The position numbers and the translations under genes are program-made. A model generated the notes under the pieces. The model ran no database searches, was not told where the DNA came from, and saw only the letters and a program-made list of their open reading frames with translations. From Haliscomenobacter hydrossis DSM 1100 (GTDB lineage Bacteria; Bacteroidota; Bacteroidia; Chitinophagales; Saprospiraceae), in assembly GCA_945878825.1 (NCBI GenBank), contig CAMDWC010000004.1, forward strand, positions 1 to 40,569: DNA of 40,569 bases, read 5' to 3'. The first letter of the stretch is position 1. Every line of letters starts with the position of its first letter. Positions 26,300 through 36,123 of this stretch are shown here, in pieces.

Positions 26300-27109
26300 A
26301 TGAAAACAACAATCATAAACCAGCCCTTTCAGGTGAGTGAGGAAGCCATCGCATTTTTCCAAAAAAACAGATTTATCAAACTGAAAAATGTGTTGGATGC
26401 GGAAACACTAGCTTATTATGGAGAAGCAATTAGTAGAAAAGTGGCAGAAATAAATACGCAGGACAAGCCAATGGAACAAAGAGATACTTATGGAAAAGCT
26501 TTTTTACAAATTTTTAATCTTTGGAGAGAGGACGAAACCTGTAAAGAATTTGTGTTAAGTAAAAGGCTGGGGCACATTGCTACGCAGTTGCTTCAAACCA
26601 ATGGTGTCCGATTATATCACGATCAGGCGTTGTTTAAAGAGGCTCGAGGCGGAATCACCCCCTGGCATGCCGATCAATATTATTGGCCATTGGCTTCCGA
26701 CAAAACCGTTACCGCCTGGATTCCACTACAAGAAGTACCGTTAGAAATGGGCCCGTTAGAATTCAGCGCTGGAAGTCAGGCGATTGTGGAGGGCAGAGAA
26801 TTATCTATCGGGGATGAAAGTGAACAGAAGATAGCGCAAAGATTGAGGGTAACCGACTTTGGACACGTTATTGAACCCTTTGAACTAGGTGAAGTAAGTT
26901 TCCATTCTGGCTGGGTTTTTCATAGAGCAGGAGCAAATGATACCGATCGTACAAGAAAAGTAATGACCATGATTTACATGGACAGTGAGATGAAATTGAA
27001 GGAACCGGAGAACGAGAATCAGGTGAATGACTGGAATACCTGGTGTCCGGGAGCTAACATCGGGGAAATTATCGCCTCGCCTATTAATCCTCTCATTTAT
27101 TCTAAATGA
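26300..27109 (+). CDS. Phytanoyl-CoA dioxygenase (PhyH) family protein
   Basis: Likely start MKTTIINQ at 26300. HxD iron-binding motif ITPWHADQYYW, distal FHSGWVFHRAGAN. Confidence 0.85.
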   Translation: MKTTIINQPFQVSEEAIAFFQKNRFIKLKNVLDAETLAYYGEAISRKVAEINTQDKPMEQRDTYGKAFLQIFNLWREDETCKEFVLSKRLGHIATQLLQTNGVRLYHDQALFKEARGGITPWHADQYYWPLASDKTVTAWIPLQEVPLEMGPLEFSAGSQAIVEGRELSIGDESEQKIAQRLRVTDFGHVIEPFELGEVSFHSGWVFHRAGANDTDRTRKVMTMIYMDSEMKLKEPENENQVNDWNTWCPGANIGEIIASPINPLIYSK

Positions 27110-28218
27110 TTCATTGTAAAGCTGCGGTTACCGATGGTAATGGACAATTTTCTATAAAAGAAATTTCTGTTGCCGATCCGACGGGAGATGAAATTCTGGT
27201 TAAAATAATGGCTGCAGGCATCTGCCATACCGATTGGGATGCCCAATTTTGGGGCAAACCACTTATTCTGGGGCATGAAGGAGCCGGCATCGTTGTAAAA
27301 ACAGCTGAAAAAGTGACGGCATTGGCCATCGGCGATAAAGTCATGCTTAATTGGGCGATACCTTGTTATCAATGTTTTCAATGTCAGTTAGGAAACCAGC
27401 ATTTGTGTGAACCCAATTCAGCCGTTACTGCGGGAAACAAACGAAGTGGCGGTCATGCAACCTACGAAAACACTACCTGTGAGGGTAAGCCGATAGAACG
27501 TGCGTTTAGTTTAGGAACCATGGCTGAATACACCTTAGTCAGAGAGGCAGCTTGTGTAAAAATACACGTTGAAATGCCCTATCCTTCCGCGGCCATTGTA
27601 GGTTGTGGCGTTATGACCGGTTATGGTTCAGTAGTTCATGCCGCCCAGGTTAAAACGGGTAGTAGTGTGGTAGTATTGGGCACGGGTGGCGTAGGTCTAA
27701 ATGTTATACAAGCAGCCCGAATTGCTGGTGCTCAAAAGATTATAGCCATTGATGTGAATCCCGGAAGATTGGAAATAGCGGCAACTTATGGTGCCACACA
27801 TTTTCTTTTAGCCGATAAAAACGATACCGGATTGCTTCTTATGGCTCAAAAAGTAAGGGAATTAACTCAGGGCAGAGGGGCAGATTATGCCTTTGAATGC
27901 ACTGCTATTCCAGCTTTAGGTGCAGCACCACTTTCCATGATACGTCATGGAGGCATGGCGGTGCAAGTAAGCGGTATTGAGCAGGAAATAACCATAGATA
28001 TGAATCTTTTTGAATGGGATAAAGTGTATATCAATCCCTTGTATGGTAAAACAAAACCACAAATTGATTTTCCCATCCTTCAGGATCTATATGCATCCGG
28101 CGCATTGAAACTGGATGAAATGATCACATCTACTTATCCTTTGGAAAAACTTGGGGAGGCATTTCATGATATGCATGCGGGAAAAAATGCGAAGGGAGTG
28201 ATTGAATTTGTAGATTGA
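27106..28218 (+). CDS. Zinc-dependent alcohol dehydrogenase (MDR family, class III-like)
   Basis: 370 aa; GICHTDWDAQFW, GHEGAG, structural Zn cysteines CYQCFQCQLGNQHLC, GTGGVGLNVIQ Rossmann motif. ATGA overlap with PhyH. Confidence 0.9.
   Translation: MIHCKAAVTDGNGQFSIKEISVADPTGDEILVKIMAAGICHTDWDAQFWGKPLILGHEGAGIVVKTAEKVTALAIGDKVMLNWAIPCYQCFQCQLGNQHLCEPNSAVTAGNKRSGGHATYENTTCEGKPIERAFSLGTMAEYTLVREAACVKIHVEMPYPSAAIVGCGVMTGYGSVVHAAQVKTGSSVVVLGTGGVGLNVIQAARIAGAQKIIAIDVNPGRLEIAATYGATHFLLADKNDTGLLLMAQKVRELTQGRGADYAFECTAIPALGAAPLSMIRHGGMAVQVSGIEQEITIDMNLFEWDKVYINPLYGKTKPQIDFPILQDLYASGALKLDEMITSTYPLEKLGEAFHDMHAGKNAKGVIEFVD
28145..28218 (+). repeat. 74-bp repeat, copy 1 (3' end of the alcohol dehydrogenase gene)
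   Basis: 73/74 identical to 32681..32754; single T/C difference (EFVD vs EFAD). Confidence 0.97.
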
Positions 28219-28228
28219 ATAAAACCTG

Positions 28229-29020
28229 ATGATGTCCACATTTTTCACCATGGAAGAAGCCTACATATCTCCATTTCAAGTGCTGACCGTCAAGAGTCCA
28301 TCGTTAGGGAAGCGAGCAGATATTACGGTATTTAATCCTGAGAAAAATAAAAGCTCGGTTAAGTCCTTACCCCTTGTTATTTTATTGCATGGCGTCTATG
28401 GCAGTCACTGGACATGGTCTTTGAAAGGAAAGGTTCACTTGATCTTGCAACGATTTAATAGATGAAAAACGGGTAAATCCCATGGTTTTAGCGATGCCCT
28501 CCGATGGATTATTTGGCGATGGCAGCGCTTATATTCCCCATAAAACAGAAAATTATGAACAATGGATTGTTCAAGATGTTATCGCTGCAGTAAAGAAAAA
28601 AACGAGGTATTGGATGATCATTCTCCCATTTATATAGCAGGTCTATCGATGGGAGGGTATGGAGCGCTCCGTTTGGGGGCAAAATATCCGAATCTATTTA
28701 GTGGATTTTCCGGATTATCATCTATCACTTTTGATCAGATGTCCTTGTTTCTTGAAAACATGGATGAACTTAAGGAAAAAGCACTCATACAAGATGGTGT
28801 GCTGGAATGGATGATAGCCAATAAAAAATATCTCCCTCCCTTTCGATTTGATTGTGGCATTGAGGATTTATTGATTGAACCAAACAGATTCTTACATCGT
28901 ACTTTAATTAAATATAATATTCCTCATATTTACGAGGAAAATGAAGGAAAACATGAATGGGAATATTGGACCAAAAATATTGAGCAATCTTTGTTATTTT
29001 TTGATGGCTTGAACAAGTAA
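28229..29020 (+). pseudogene. Alpha/beta hydrolase esterase (S-formylglutathione hydrolase/FrmB-like), disrupted by two compensating frameshifts
   Basis: LVILLHGVYGSHWTWSLKGKVHLILQR in ORF 28229..28465; NPMVLAMPSDGLFGDGSAYIPHKTENYEQWIVQDVIAAVKKK in a second frame; IAGLSMGGYGALRLGAKYPNLF back in the first frame. Extra T near 28454-28456, missing A in the A7 run 28596-28602. Confidence 0.8.
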
Positions 29021-29102
29021 CTCCCATTTACCCGGGAGTATATCCTCTGGGAAAGTTATAAATTACAACATAATTTGGTATATTTAATACAAATAAATTC
29101 TC

Positions 29103-29351
29103 ATGGCAAAAAACACATCCATTTTACTTGAAGATAATTTTGAAACTTTTATAAATGGTCAACTACAAACCGGGAAGTTCTCTTCTGCGGGCGAAGTAGT
29201 TCATGCCGCGTTGAGATTGTTTGAACAAGAAGAAACAAAAAAAGCTGAGCTTATCAATGAACTCATTAAGGGAGAAAAATCTGGGTTTGTCAAAGATTTT
29301 AATCGTGATGCCTTTATGCAAAATCTTAAGGAAAATCACTTTAAAAAATGA
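29103..29351 (+). CDS. parD: ParD-like ribbon-helix-helix antitoxin
   Basis: 82 aa; NTSILLEDNFETFINGQLQTGKFSSAGEVVHAALRLFEQEE. Confidence 0.85.
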   Translation: MAKNTSILLEDNFETFINGQLQTGKFSSAGEVVHAALRLFEQEETKKAELINELIKGEKSGFVKDFNRDAFMQNLKENHFKK

Positions 29352-29649
29352 ATTTTAGCTAAGTAAAGAAACGGAAAGAGATTTAGAAAATATATGGTTA
29401 TATACACATGAAAATTGGTCCATTGAGCAAGCTGAGAGATATCTAAATTTGATTTTTGACGAGATTGATTATCTCTGCTTAAAGCCAAAATCAGGGTTTG
29501 AATTTGGAAACATAAGAGATGGATATTTGCGCTCAAAAGTTAAATCACATTATATCTATTATAAAATCAACCTTAAGGAAAACGAATTAGAAATAATAAG
29601 GATTTTGCATGAAATGATGCATGTTGAAAATCAACTTGGTAGAAGCTAG
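29348..29649 (+). pseudogene. parE: ParE-like toxin with a frameshift in its first codons
   Basis: ATG 29348 gives MNFS*; from 29359 another frame reads LSKETERDLENIWLYTHENWSIEQAERYLNLIFDEIDYLCLKPKSGFEFGNIRDGYLRSKVKSHYIYYKINLKENELEIIRILHEMMHVENQLGRS. One missing base between 29354 and 29359 would reconcile them. Confidence 0.8.
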
Positions 29650-29690
29650 CGGCTAAAATTTCGTTGCGTTATGAGAACGCTTACCATTGG

Positions 29691-30251
29691 TTATACCAAA
29701 CCGTTCGTTATGGAGATATTTATCAGCTCCATCGAATTTTTTACTCCCCATTTAGCCAGCATATTCCTTCTTTGTGTATTAACCGTTTCCTTTAAAATAA
29801 ATAATTGTTTGCCAATTTCTTCATTGGTTCTGCCTTGAATCAGTTTATTCAATATTTCTTTTTCCCTGGTTTAAAAACGCTCTTCTGGTTTTAGAAAGGA
29901 AAGAACAGGTAATCCTTCATTTTTTAAATCTGTAATATCTGAATGTATACCCATCGATTTTACAATGGCACCTTTATCGTCTGTTTCGATAGTTATTACT
30001 TGTTGTAACACCCTCATATAATGCCCATCTTTATGCTTTAACCTGTAATCATATCTTACTTTATACTTAAACATTTTTTCTATGGTCAATTCGTTAAAAA
30101 ATTCCATAACCTTTGATTCAAAAGACATGACCACAGGTAAATCAATAGGGTGCACCAACGAAATCAATTTTCCCAAAGACATTTCATTTGGTTCATAAGC
30201 TGATACATCCCTGGTGCCCGAACTATAATTATTCAATAAAGAATTCTTCAT
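29691..30251 (-). pseudogene. PAS-domain + LuxR-type HTH regulator interrupted by an in-frame stop
   Basis: PAS ORF 29871..30251 ends PEERF*; the same frame continues TREKEILNKLIQGRTNEEIGKQLFILKETVNTQRRNMLAKWGVKNSMELINISITNGLV* to 29691. Confidence 0.8.
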
Positions 30252-30791
30252 ATCCAGAAAATAAAAATAGGACTTTCCAATAATGAAAAGGGCTAACTTA
30301 TTTTCCTGAAGGACATCAATAACAGCTAAATTTTATTGAATGGAATTACCATATTTCTGATTGTTCCAGATATTATTGACTAATTTTTCGATGGGTAGAT
30401 AGCTATTTATGAGAGTAAAGAATTTTAATACAATTTCAAAAATAATTAGTTTTCCTCCTAAAAAATGACGTGAAATACATGAATTTATCGTAGAATGTAG
30501 GTTACTGGTCTTATAATAATGGATTTGAAAACTGTCCCATCATGAACTAATGAAGCTACTGGAAAAATATCCTATTAAAAAAAATTAAGGTCCGTTGACA
30601 AAGATATATTCAAAAAAATATTGGAACATTATAAGAATATCGATCTTAACGAGCATGTATCCTGCTTATCATAATGTTGAATCGTTTTGTGATTTATATA
30701 TACTAAACAAATTTTGATGGCATAGCTTTAAAGTTTATAAACTGTTTCATTTTAAACTAAGTTCAGCATAATTTCATTGAATAATTTTCAT

Positions 30792-31982
30792 TTAATGCTG
30801 TACTATAAGTTTTGCGCTTACGCTTCGCGATTTTATTAAATATACTCCATTTGGTAATCCTCTTGTGTCAATACGTTTTGCAGATGTTATTTTTGGCAAT
30901 ACAGTCTGCCCACTTAAATTAAATATTTCAACATCGTATATTTCCTCGTTGAAATGTATAAAATCATTAGCTGGGTTTGGATAAAATTTTATACCATTAT
31001 TATTTATTTTTTCATTATCTAAAGCACTTACAATGGATAAATTACAATTCATAATAAAAGGCTTTGATGCATAATTAGTTCTCCATTTATTTACGACAGC
31101 TGGAATAAATTGCCATTCTACTTTATTTGCAGTAACTAAAACATTTATCGAATCCATCAAATCATCTAATTTAGTTGAAATAAAATTAGGAGTGTTAAGA
31201 TAATTTTCTCTAAAAAAAATACTTGTACAATAGAACCCATTAGATGGAGCAGAGCCAGACTGAATAGCATTCGTTAATTTTCTTATTTCTTTCATTAAAT
31301 CAGTAATACGAGTTGTATCATGAAATTCGTATTTACAACCTTGCCCGTAATTTATTAAATGATTTGAAGCTTTGTGTTTTAAAAAATTAGTCCTAGATTC
31401 TGGTTTCCAAATGCCGTTATAAAGGGGGTCCTTGGTGTGCCCTGGAGTTCCTGCCCCCCATAAAATTTCAGGCGCCCAATAGTAAGAAGGAAAAATATCG
31501 CCATTATTTGGAACCTGATAATCTTGCCAATCGTGTCCGCTAGCTAATTCATTATACAAAAAGCCACTCATCACTTTTCCTGGAGGAACACCACAACTGT
31601 CGTGAAGCTTTGCAACATCTGCATAATTGTAAAGTGATTCATGTGCATGAGGATCACATTCTACTGCTGTAGAATAAGTAGTTGAAACATATTTTAAAAC
31701 ATTAAATCCACCCGTAGAAGCTGTTAAAGCTCCTTTATCGTATGAAAGAACTGCTCTTAACATAGTATGGTCGCTTCCTAAATGCCACTTAGCTCCTTTA
31801 CTCGCAGCAAGTTGAGCCATTTGAATGATTTTTGGTCTAATCGCTAAAAAAGTTGCCGGGTTAGACAGGTAAGAGTAATTTTCTTCGTTGTGAGACACAA
31901 GGTTTATGTAAACCTTTGGACTTTGTGCTTTTGTGAAAAATGATATTAAACACATCATAAATATAAATAAATGTATTTTCAT
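30792..31982 (-). CDS. Secreted protein with T9SS type A C-terminal sorting domain, function unknown
   Basis: 396 aa; signal peptide MKIHLFIFMMCLISFFTKAQ; C-terminal GIKFYPNPANDFIHF...VEIFNLSGQTV...GLPNGVYLIKSRSVSAKLIVQH. Confidence 0.85.
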   Translation of the reverse strand: MKIHLFIFMMCLISFFTKAQSPKVYINLVSHNEENYSYLSNPATFLAIRPKIIQMAQLAASKGAKWHLGSDHTMLRAVLSYDKGALTASTGGFNVLKYVSTTYSTAVECDPHAHESLYNYADVAKLHDSCGVPPGKVMSGFLYNELASGHDWQDYQVPNNGDIFPSYYWAPEILWGAGTPGHTKDPLYNGIWKPESRTNFLKHKASNHLINYGQGCKYEFHDTTRITDLMKEIRKLTNAIQSGSAPSNGFYCTSIFFRENYLNTPNFISTKLDDLMDSINVLVTANKVEWQFIPAVVNKWRTNYASKPFIMNCNLSIVSALDNEKINNNGIKFYPNPANDFIHFNEEIYDVEIFNLSGQTVLPKITSAKRIDTRGLPNGVYLIKSRSVSAKLIVQH

Positions 31983-32090
31983 AAAAATTTTACTACTTAT
32001 TGAAAAAAGAAAAATTAGTTACACCCATTAATATACGAATTTTCAAGGAAAAAGTCGGGTACTACCGTTATTTTGCTGAATATATTTTCC

Positions 32091-32466
32091 TGTGTTTGTC
32101 AAAAATAAAATCCGTCTGAAATTGACCCCCCTTTTTAGTGCTAAATTACGTCAGATTTAATTGGTAAAATAATGGTAAAAGAGGTGCCTACCTTTCGAAT
32201 TTAAAAATCGAAATGAGATGGCAAATAAACCACTTACCGTGAATAGGATCGGATTAATCATGCAAAACCTAAATCAAGACGATAGTATTATGGAAATAAG
32301 CCGTAAATACGACATATCCATAAACACTATCAAGAAATACCGTAAATCACTGAGTTTAGATGGTTCTACTGTAGCGCCCATCATTGAGTTGAGTGATGAG
32401 CAATTATCGGAGCAACAACTGAGCCCTATGAAGAAAGAAGATAGTGGAAGCAGACACAGTCGACTG
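32091..32466 (+). mobile_element. IS21-family remnant: candidate left end plus IstA N-terminal fragment
   Basis: Candidate left end tgtgtttgtcaaaaataaaatccgtctgaaattgaccccc; ORF from 32218 MANKPLTVNRIGLIMQNLNQDDSIMEISRKYDISINTIKKYRKS...KKEDSGSRHSRL resembles IstA N-termini. No catalytic domain or istB follows. Confidence 0.6.
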
Positions 32467-32754
32467 AAGACTAAAAAAGATTATTTAATTAGTCAAAATA
32501 AAAACGAAAATATGAATTTCCAAAGGGTGATGGAGGCCTTTGATTTATTTAACTCATTAAACTTTGCCTAGGATTTATCCCCATTTATTCATTTAGAAAA
32601 GCGCAGGCCTCAAGGAACTGAAAACTTACAAAGTTTGCTTCATTCCATAAAAACCCGCCGTAAAATTAAATTTAGTTATCAAAAACTTGGGGAGGCATTT
32701 CATGATATGCATGCGGGAAAAAATGCGAAGGGAGTGATTGAATTTGCAGATTGA
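32218..32754 (+). pseudogene. In-frame mosaic: IstA N-terminus + WYL-domain regulator fragment + alcohol dehydrogenase C-terminus, one internal TAG
   Basis: One frame of 179 codons. TAG at 32569-32571 (NFA*DLSPFIHLEKRRPQGTENLQSLLHSIKTRRKIKFSYQK, WYL-like), then LGEAFHDMHAGKNAKGVIEFAD* matching the gene at 27106-28218. Confidence 0.75.
32681..32754 (+). repeat. 74-bp repeat, copy 2 (displaced alcohol dehydrogenase 3' end)
   Basis: 73/74 identical to 28145..28218, direct orientation. Confidence 0.97.
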
Positions 32755-32854
32755 CTCCTCCTAAAGAAAGGTAACAGACAAGTGGATTAAAACATTTTAT
32801 TTAAAAATCACTAATTAACGTACAAATTGTGGTGCATTTACAAAAATTGATTTC

Positions 32855-33106
32855 ATGAAAAAAGTAACAATTTCTACTTTAAGAAAAGAAATGAAAGAAT
32901 ATTTTGATTATGTTTCAAAATCGATGGGAGTAATCATTGTTCCCAGAAATAAAGAAAATGAAGCTATTGTAATCATTTCAATTCAAGAATATAATTCTCT
33001 TTTGGAAACAGAACATCTTTTATCAACCAATAATAATCGCAACAGAATTCAAGAATCAATAAATCAAATGGCAAAGGAAAAAACGGTATTATTTAAGGTG
33101 GATTAA
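32855..33106 (+). CDS. yefM: Phd/YefM-family antitoxin
   Basis: 83 aa; VTISTLRKEMKEYFDYVSKSMGVIIVPRNKENEAIVIISIQEYNSLLETEHLLS. Confidence 0.8.
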   Translation: MKKVTISTLRKEMKEYFDYVSKSMGVIIVPRNKENEAIVIISIQEYNSLLETEHLLSTNNNRNRIQESINQMAKEKTVLFKVD

Positions 33107-33108
33107 AT

Positions 33109-33321
33109 ATGAATATTGAATTTACAGCTCATGGCTGGGAAGATTTCAATAATTGGCTTGAAAATGATAAAGAAGTTGTCAAGAAAATAAAAGAATTAAT
33201 AAAAGCAATAATACGGGAGCCATTTAAAGGAATTGGTACCTGCGAACCATTAAAATTTGGTCTTAAAGGTTTTTCGTCCAGAAGAATTATTGGAGAACAT
33301 CGTTTGGTATATTCAATGTAG
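33109..33321 (+). pseudogene. yoeB: YoeB-like toxin truncated at the C-terminus
   Basis: 70 aa NIEFTAHGWEDFNNWLENDKEVVKKIKELIKAIIREPFKGIGTCEPLKFGLKGFSSRRIIGEHRLVYSM*; ends before the terminal RYHY-type segment of YoeB. Confidence 0.75.
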
Positions 33322-33395
33322 ATTTCATTTTGATTAAAAATACTTAAACTTTTATGCGGCAAATGATTAATTTGCATTTCCCTTTTTTTAATACG

Positions 33396-33416: not shown

Positions 33417-34391
33417 ATGATTTTCGTAGATATCAAAAATGACATAGCATTCCGCAAAATATTTGGTAATGATGAAAAAACAGCACCACTTATTTCCTTT
33501 TTGAATGCTGCATTACAATTAGAGGGGAATGATCAGGTTGAAAGCGTTACCCTAGTCAATCCATATCAATTTCCACGGATAAGGGGAGAAAAAGCATCTG
33601 TTTTGGACGTTAGGGCAGTGGATCATTCAGGTCGAATATTTGTTGTTGAAATGCAGGTTGCCGAAAAGAATGGTTTCGATAAACGCGTACAATATTACAT
33701 TTCCCGTGATTATTCCATGCAGATTAACATTGGAGATGATTATCCAGTGTTGAACCCAGCTTATTTTATTGGTATATTAGATTTCCCCTTTGGAGAAGGG
33801 GATAAATATAATACCCATCATTTAATACTGGAAAAGGAGACCTACGAGCATCTGTTGACAGATATTCAGTTCGCATTTATACAATTACCCAAATTTAATC
33901 TCGGCATAGATGAATTAGTTACCCCTATTGACAAGTGGACCTATTTTATTAAAAATGCCACAAAATTAACCTTTATACCTGAATTTGCACAAGCTGATGA
34001 GGGTTTAAAAACGGCATTTATAGCGGCGGATAAACATAATTGGACTAAAGAAGAATGGATAGCCTACGATAATACAATGATTAAAGCAAGAGATTTAATC
34101 CAGGAAAAATTGTTTATAATTGAAAAAGCGGAAGCTAAAGGATTAGAGCAAGGTAGAATAAAAGGTAAACTGGAGGGTAAAATAGAAGGCAAAATAGAAG
34201 GTAAAATAGAAGGTAAAATAGAGGGAAAAATTGAAGGCAAAATTGAAGGTAACTTGGAGGGAAAGATACAAAAGGAGGTAGAGTTAATTTTAGGGATGCA
34301 TTACGAGGGTTTCAAGATTCCACAAATCGCAAGAATAACCCTAAAGAGTGAGGAAGAGATTATTAGAATTATCAAACAGTCGGAGTTATAG
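33417..34391 (+). CDS. Rpn family recombination-promoting nuclease / PD-(D/E)XK transposase-like protein
   Basis: 324 aa; DIKNDIAFRKIFGNDEKTAPLISFLNAAL...DVRAVDHSGRIFVVEMQV...RVQYYISRDYS; C-terminal GxIEGK repeats. Confidence 0.88.
   Translation: MIFVDIKNDIAFRKIFGNDEKTAPLISFLNAALQLEGNDQVESVTLVNPYQFPRIRGEKASVLDVRAVDHSGRIFVVEMQVAEKNGFDKRVQYYISRDYSMQINIGDDYPVLNPAYFIGILDFPFGEGDKYNTHHLILEKETYEHLLTDIQFAFIQLPKFNLGIDELVTPIDKWTYFIKNATKLTFIPEFAQADEGLKTAFIAADKHNWTKEEWIAYDNTMIKARDLIQEKLFIIEKAEAKGLEQGRIKGKLEGKIEGKIEGKIEGKIEGKIEGKIEGNLEGKIQKEVELILGMHYEGFKIPQIARITLKSEEEIIRIIKQSEL
34152..34271 (+). repeat. Ten in-frame 12-bp tandem units (consensus ggtaaaatagaa, G-K-I-E)
   Basis: Read directly; units differ mostly at synonymous or conservative positions. 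Confidence 0.9.
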
Positions 34392-34629: not shown

Positions 34630-36123
34630 ATGCACCTGAAATCCATAAAACATTTATTATTACCAGTCCTTATCATTTTCGTTTTTACTTCTTTTCAAAC
34701 GAAAAAGCAAATAGCTAATAAACAGCCTAATATCGTACTCATTTTCATGGACGATATGGGTTATGCCGATTTGAGCTGTTATGGATCGGAGACCATTTCC
34801 ACGCCAAATATTGATAAACTGGCAGACAATGGCGTGAAGTTTACCGATTTTCATGTAGCTGCCTCCGTTTGCACCCCATCCCGTACCGCCTTGTTGACTG
34901 GCTGTTACCCTCACCGTCTTGGTTTGCCAAAAGTGCTTTTCCCCGAAGGAAAAAACAATGCAGGTAATACCGGATTACACCCAGAGGAACAAACAATTGC
35001 CGAGCTACTTAAAGGAAACGGATATGCTACGTCGATGGCTGGCAAATGGCATTTGGGGGATAAAAAAATGTTTTTACCAACCCAACATGGTTTTGATCAA
35101 TATTTTGGCGTGCCTTACAGCAATGATATGACCATTGCGCCTGACATGGTTTTAGCGGAAAATATCCTTTTGCAAAATGGCGTGACCAGAGAAATGATTC
35201 AACACTTTGACGCTGTGAAAATGGATAATAAAAATCATCAGACGCCGCTTATGAAAAATAATGAGGTAGTCGAATTTCCTGCTGACCAAACCACTTTAAC
35301 CAAACGATACACCGAATATTCCGTCGATTTCATCAATCAACAGGCGGGAAAATCACCCTTTTTCCTGTATTTAGCCCATACCATGCCACATATTCCCATT
35401 TTTGCTTCAAAAGACTTTTTGGGCAAATCTAAAGGGGGTTTGTATGGTGATGTCATAGAAGAGGTGGACTGGTCTGTTGGCGAAATAATGAAGGCGTTAG
35501 AGAAAAAAGGGGTCTTGAATAATACGCTGATTATTTTCACTTCTGATAATGGACCCTGGCTTTCCTACGGAAATCATGGTGGCAGTGCAGGCAAACTGCG
35601 AGGTGGTAAATTTGATGTTTTTGAGGGTGGCTTCAGGGTTCCCTGCATCATGTCTTTTCCAAAGGTTATCCCAAAAGGGAAGGTAAATCATGATTTAATA
35701 AACAGCATGGATATTGTTCCTACCCTTTGTCAAATGACTGGAACGCCCTTGCCCACAAAAAAGATAGACGGAATCAATGTTTTGTCTTTGCTTAAAGGTA
35801 AAAAGATGAATAAGACGCTGGATACCCGATATTTTTATTATTTCTCTGATGAAAAATTATCGGCTATCCGGAAAGGACATTGGAAATATATGATTCCTAT
35901 TAAATATAAGGCCGTTTCAATCGCAGGTGAAAATGGTAAAAATGGTAAATCGGAAGCTTATCAGCAATTAGAAGCCCTCTACCATTTAGATAAGGATATT
36001 TCAGAAAGCACAAATATCATCAATGATTACCCTGAAATAGCCAACGAGCTAAGACAAGCACTGGAAGCATTTAATCAAACCATTAAAAAAGAAGCTCGAC
36101 CTATTGGCGTCACCTCAAAATAA
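34630..36123 (+). CDS. Sulfatase (arylsulfatase family), secreted
   Basis: 497 aa; PNIVLIFMDDMGYADLSCYG; formylglycine motif CTPSRTALLTG; GKWHLG. Confidence 0.93.
   Translation: MHLKSIKHLLLPVLIIFVFTSFQTKKQIANKQPNIVLIFMDDMGYADLSCYGSETISTPNIDKLADNGVKFTDFHVAASVCTPSRTALLTGCYPHRLGLPKVLFPEGKNNAGNTGLHPEEQTIAELLKGNGYATSMAGKWHLGDKKMFLPTQHGFDQYFGVPYSNDMTIAPDMVLAENILLQNGVTREMIQHFDAVKMDNKNHQTPLMKNNEVVEFPADQTTLTKRYTEYSVDFINQQAGKSPFFLYLAHTMPHIPIFASKDFLGKSKGGLYGDVIEEVDWSVGEIMKALEKKGVLNNTLIIFTSDNGPWLSYGNHGGSAGKLRGGKFDVFEGGFRVPCIMSFPKVIPKGKVNHDLINSMDIVPTLCQMTGTPLPTKKIDGINVLSLLKGKKMNKTLDTRYFYYFSDEKLSAIRKGHWKYMIPIKYKAVSIAGENGKNGKSEAYQQLEALYHLDKDISESTNIINDYPEIANELRQALEAFNQTIKKEARPIGVTSK

Follow-up and report, generated by a model that had tools for sequence, protein, structure and literature searches.

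A three-piece reading frame behind an alcohol dehydrogenase gene in Haliscomenobacter as a probable scar of one-sided insertion

Homology-facilitated illegitimate recombination (HFIR) joins DNA through homology on one side and through 3-10 bp of microhomology at the illegitimate end, and measurements have shown it to be rare (PMC3240628). It has been proposed for the T6SS clusters of Vibrio, in which inserted modules shift the 3' ends of the displaced genes behind them (PMC5361080). Here, a related arrangement is described in a window of 40,569 nucleotides (the whole stretch of DNA analysed; contig CAMDWC010000004.1, assembly GCA_945878825.1, Haliscomenobacter hydrossis DSM 1100), in which a block of decayed genes lies between an intact alcohol dehydrogenase (ADH) gene and a second copy of that gene's 3' end. 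As in the HFIR products of naturally transformable bacteria, homology on one side, microhomology on the other and an insertion of foreign DNA would be combined at this locus (PMC3240628). In those products a deletion of comparable size is usual, whereas in the window the last 74 nt of the ADH gene are duplicated, no part of the resident locus is visibly missing, and the event is one deduced from the sequence. The order of anchor, new genes, 3' end of the old gene and old downstream neighbor also matches the effector-module displacement in the T6SS of Vibrio cholerae (PMC5361080), but effector and immunity genes are absent here, the anchor encodes a metabolic dehydrogenase, and the role of the neighbor falls to a toxin-antitoxin locus whose toxin gene has decayed. 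Truncated insertion sequence (IS) relics and chimeric bacterial pseudogenes offer a third parallel, the left end of an IS and the 5' part of istA being fused to an unrelated fragment with an internal stop; unlike in the usual cases, two successive joints in the window are in phase, which is mildly unusual yet within chance. The scar is an already known kind of recombination product, and the locus is a clear natural case of short gene 3' ends being left when blocks enter downstream of a conserved gene, with other states visible in relatives.

The source assembly is a draft metagenome-assembled genome (MAG) of 425 contigs, 88.6% complete. This genome (G000) was compared with six genus relatives (G001-G006), which are MAGs labelled Saprospiraceae, Haliscomenobacteraceae or Bacteroidetes/Bacteroidota; isolate names referring to a pond, together with lake-style sample codes, suggest a freshwater habitat.

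Translation of 32218-32754 on the forward strand gives a single frame of 179 codons with one internal TAG (32569-32571) and a terminal TGA, as a preliminary description of this DNA had stated, while the remaining two forward frames contain stops throughout. The frame runs from the start of istA through the middle of a WYL/WCX regulator gene into the last 74 nt of an ADH gene. The three family assignments made earlier (IstA-like, WYL-like, ADH end) are correct, each piece having its own homologue: an intact IS21 transposase for the first, a 315-aa WYL-WCX gene that is intact in a genus relative for the second, and the ADH of the window itself for the third. The suggested search of related genomes recovered the intact WYL gene, in G005, and in no relative the fusion; the istA/WYL/ADH joined frame is absent from all relatives searched and does not form one conserved protein family. 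Because of the in-frame TAG, the unconstrained divergence of the istA part and the absence of the joined frame from the relatives, the 179-codon frame is not regarded as a gene. It is probably a recombination scar, in which three broken gene ends were brought together by a one-sided insertion. On its own the frame is of little weight: it is a scar resembling a pseudogene, and gene finders could wrongly annotate it as a small IS21 protein.

Both joints lie in A-rich microhomology. At the istA-to-WYL joint (32474-32480) the two homologous matches overlap in AAAAAG(A), and at the WYL-to-ADH joint (32681-32688) the WYL match overlaps the ADH repeat in AAAAA(CTT), approximately 5-8 nt. The A-rich run that had been proposed as common to both partners at the latter joint is thus present, and the istA/WYL joint has one likewise. 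The open frame inside each piece stems from its earlier coding role. Of the 6-7-mers shared between WYL and ADH, 46-48% already agree in codon phase, as do 42-45% of those shared between IstA and WYL, so two in-phase microhomology joints are expected approximately once in five. Retention of the frame is therefore unremarkable and within chance, and where joints fall in A-rich lysine codons, in-phase joining of unrelated coding pieces says little for function. Hence, of the earlier interpretation, the families and the A-rich microhomology stand and the significance given to frame retention does not: to call the frame preserved was an overstatement, since the TAG lies in it, and the weight implied for a frame crossing both junctions is unsupported given the chance expectation, the TAG and the neutral decay of istA.

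The internal WYL-WCX fragment (32474-32688, forward strand) is 79% identical at the nucleotide level, over 215 nt, to the intact 315-aa WYL+WCX gene of G005. Its approximately 70 codons, with the TAG inside, are homologous to residues 83-157 of that protein; full WYL and WCX domains are not found in one open protein, the WYL domain match having an E value of 0.14. Differences from the G005 gene number 13, 5 and 26 at the first, second and third codon positions, and the third-position excess is read as a likely trace of selection before breakage and on the intact G005 copy. Among 149 related genomes the fragment matched only G005, apart from three matches of approximately 26-36 nt that are too short to count, and the draft genome of the window contains no other WYL-WCX gene copy. 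The WYL/ADH joint had no match in an exact scan of viral contigs. Reassignment of the TAG as a sense codon was also considered; against it, the intact G005 gene has CAT (His) at that position.

The first piece of the frame belongs to an IS21-family left end with the 5' part of istA (32108-32480, forward strand), whose start codon lies at 32218 and which breaks off after approximately 88 codons. IS21 homology of this N-terminal part is present: alone, it matches the NCBIfam IS21 transposase model NF033546 weakly (E 5.7e-4, profile 1-77), and it is 38% identical over 63 aa to the N-terminal part of an IS21 transposase that is intact (534 aa) and occurs in the same family. A second relic, in G002, is 85% identical over 296 nt and, by eye, extends beyond the joint of the window into more IstA-like sequence. 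Since the differences between these two relics are equal across the three codon positions (13/12/14), the decay appears neutral, as expected without selection. The piece is a relic rather than an element because only the left end and those istA codons remain, neither istB nor a right end having been found in the block. IS21 relics sharing this istA piece occur elsewhere in the genus. An intact IS21 source, sought throughout the genus, scored above the cut-off only in G001, and in the draft genome of the window the IS21 transposase matches (28.2 and 24.8 bits) are both under the family cut-off. Several IS21 left-end relics of the genus end approximately 45 nt into istA, and three of the left-end relics (L040:3710-3864, L077:5644-5794 and L078:2798-2948) share the continuation CTGGGCCACCTCCTAACTTC... 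GGGGATAAAAAGG; relics of this form may represent a derivative that carries an internal deletion and has moved repeatedly.

The intact zinc-dependent ADH gene (370 aa; 27106-28218, forward strand) has 94-98% amino acid identity to its counterparts in the six genus relatives. Its last 74 nt (28145-28218) recur downstream at 32681-32754 on the same strand with 73 of 74 positions identical, a direct repeat that the preliminary description had missed. The two ADH ends, which differ at one base, are 4536 nt apart and flank the block 28219-32680; the downstream end carries a GCA codon, as in G002 and G004, and the intact upstream copy carries GTA. Within the frame, the ADH piece supplies the last 24 residues and the stop, and the ADH_N and zinc-binding domains are not in it. 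A donor tract, sought as a drop in ADH identity to the relatives towards the 3' end, is not visible, since no clear drop occurs.

The block between the repeats (approximately 4.5 kb) consists mostly of decayed genes. The esterase gene (28219-29020, forward strand) has a stop and frameshifts, and is followed by a ParD-like antitoxin gene (29103-29351; PF03693, TIGR02606) and a ParE-like reading frame that shows no clean start on translation (together 29103-29650, forward strand). On the reverse strand lie a truncated PAS-domain protein gene (29690-30251; ORF 29871-30251, PF08447), decayed in its downstream part, and a gene for a 396-aa secreted protein with a C-terminal sorting domain (30792-31982), which is 83% identical at the nucleotide level to a gene elsewhere in G005. 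The PAS region has 88% nucleotide identity to G006 and 76-77% to paralogues at other loci of the genus. The IS21 and WYL fragments complete the block, and no genome among those searched carries it in full.

Comparison of gene orders indicates which part of the locus may be older. In each of the six genus relatives, sequence matching the window from 32681 onward adjoins ADH, 28219-28947 is missing between, and next come genes for a YefM-like antitoxin and a YoeB-like toxin, then an Rpn-family nuclease gene, whole or in part. In the window, by comparison, ADH is followed by the esterase, ParD/ParE and the fragments, then by the second ADH end, and only then by the YefM/YoeB-like locus (32755-33382, forward strand; antitoxin 32855-33106). 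Outside the genus, 60 of 80 ADH loci of GTDB genomes have an esterase gene at most 500 nt downstream, mostly a few dozen bases away (counted by hand from a table of ADH loci); because of this frequency, the ADH-esterase order of the first copy in the window is taken, on gene order, as the widespread older arrangement. The last 73 nt of the esterase (28948-29020) are the only esterase part left in G001, G003 and G006, where they sit with ParD/ParE after the YefM/YoeB locus. Given these gene orders, the GCA/GTA codons and a deletion in the YoeB-like gene common to several genomes, the right part of the locus seems to retain the resident order typical of the genus, and the block from ADH-esterase to WYL appears to have been added. 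This direction of the event would follow by parsimony over seven genomes whose tree is nearly star-like, with weak support for deep branching beyond the outlying place of G005, the genome most distant from the others.

From the ADH repeat and the genus arrangement we therefore infer that the frame is the right-hand scar of a one-sided insertion at a short A-rich microhomology, which accounts for the locus in few steps. A chromosome with the ADH-YefM/YoeB order common in the genus would have received linear DNA from a relative, carrying ADH-esterase-ParDE and the fragments beyond. Homologous recombination within ADH or upstream of it would have taken in one donor end, and the other would have joined illegitimately, at approximately 5-8 nt of A-rich microhomology, within the final 80 nt of the resident ADH gene. 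The istA/WYL fusion was probably in the block before insertion. The in-phase frame would then be a by-product of joined lysine-rich A-runs, already broken by a stop. That the specific mechanism was HFIR is possible, and we propose it tentatively: the microhomology at 32681-32688, with ADH supplying the homology on the other side, conforms to the HFIR pattern, which is what would be expected and not proof of the process. As for a donor, ADH-esterase is common outside the genus, and the esterase end with ParDE occurs inside it. The competence genes searched for do not discriminate, because DprA and ComEC, which are in the genome of the window, are also in most control genomes including E. coli.

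A rather unlikely alternative is tandem duplication with reciprocal loss, in which an ancestor with the order ADH-YefM/YoeB-esterase-ParDE-WYL was duplicated at the WYL/ADH microhomology and the copies lost different genes. It likewise predicts that WYL and ADH meet in a novel microhomology joint and that an ADH 3' end is left over, and the three relatives with the esterase end and ParDE behind the YefM/YoeB locus fit it; but YefM/YoeB must have been lost precisely at the ADH stop codon, giving back an ordinary ADH-esterase spacing, the entire block must also have been lost from the second copy, and a simple tandem copy would put the esterase, not YefM/YoeB, behind the second ADH end. Less probable still, an assembly chimera of two strain haplotypes in the metagenome is unlikely: the MAG is the incomplete draft described above, the region varies among strains and the 74-nt repeat exceeds common k-mer lengths, but the WYL/ADH joint has only approximately 8 nt of shared sequence, too little for contig merging, the istA/WYL joint is alike in this, and the ADH/esterase joint is a natural one, so at most partners were swapped at the repeat. 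Site-specific integration of an element, with the two 74-nt copies serving as attL and attR at the 3' end of a gene, would leave just such a block flanked by direct repeats as follows integrase-mediated insertion; it is nevertheless very improbable, because no integrase or recombinase gene was recognized among the scanned ORFs of 28219-32680 and the left part of the block is the old ADH neighbor, and the contents are mostly decayed fragments. It is barely credible that the first 117 codons, an IstA helix-turn-helix with a WYL linker, form a functional small DNA-binding protein, for although the native istA start codon is retained and the frame is stop-free to 32568, the istA part lacks codon-position bias against the G002 relic, no relative searched has the fusion, and the draft genome offers no above-cut-off IS21 transposase to regulate.

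Short gene 3' ends are seen at more than one place: from ADH (74 nt) in the window, from the YoeB-like region (96 nt) in both G001 and G003, and from the esterase (73 nt) in G001, G003 and G006. In G001, a 96-nt direct repeat of the end of the YoeB-like region (L034:4861-4956 and L034:5605-5700) flanks the esterase end and ParD/ParE, with the same junctions in G003; this state is comparable to that of the window and speaks for the one-sided insertion. The right joint of the ParD/ParE block in G001 has an overlap of approximately 3 nt. Downstream of the YoeB-like gene, the window encodes an Rpn-family (PD-(D/E)XK) recombination-promoting nuclease (33417-34391, forward strand; TIGR01784, E 8e-35; PF12784). 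It is conceivable, though highly doubtful, that this nuclease promotes RecA-independent joining here and that the region downstream of ADH is a recurrent site of one-sided capture; if so, toxin-antitoxin genes and other fragments would be captured there, leaving these gene 3' ends behind.

Several further features of the downstream region were observed. The YefM/Phd-like antitoxin ORF is still open in the window, and the YoeB-like gene (33110-33382) is shortened by the loss of an internal stretch, apparently between ATTCAAT repeats, in G001, G004 and G006 as well as the window, whereas its C-terminus looks intact in G005. The Rpn-family gene contains approximately ten in-frame 12-nt repeats (KIEG-type) near its C-terminus, with several insertion scars adjoining, and survives only in pieces in G006. 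A sulfatase-like gene (34641-36065) is present in the window and G006 and missing at that place in G001, G002, G004 and G005. Finally, the stretch of the ADH end and YefM/YoeB (32681-33317) is 95.8% identical between G000 and G005 (L039) against approximately 91% in its flanks, suggesting either a recent exchange or stronger constraint.
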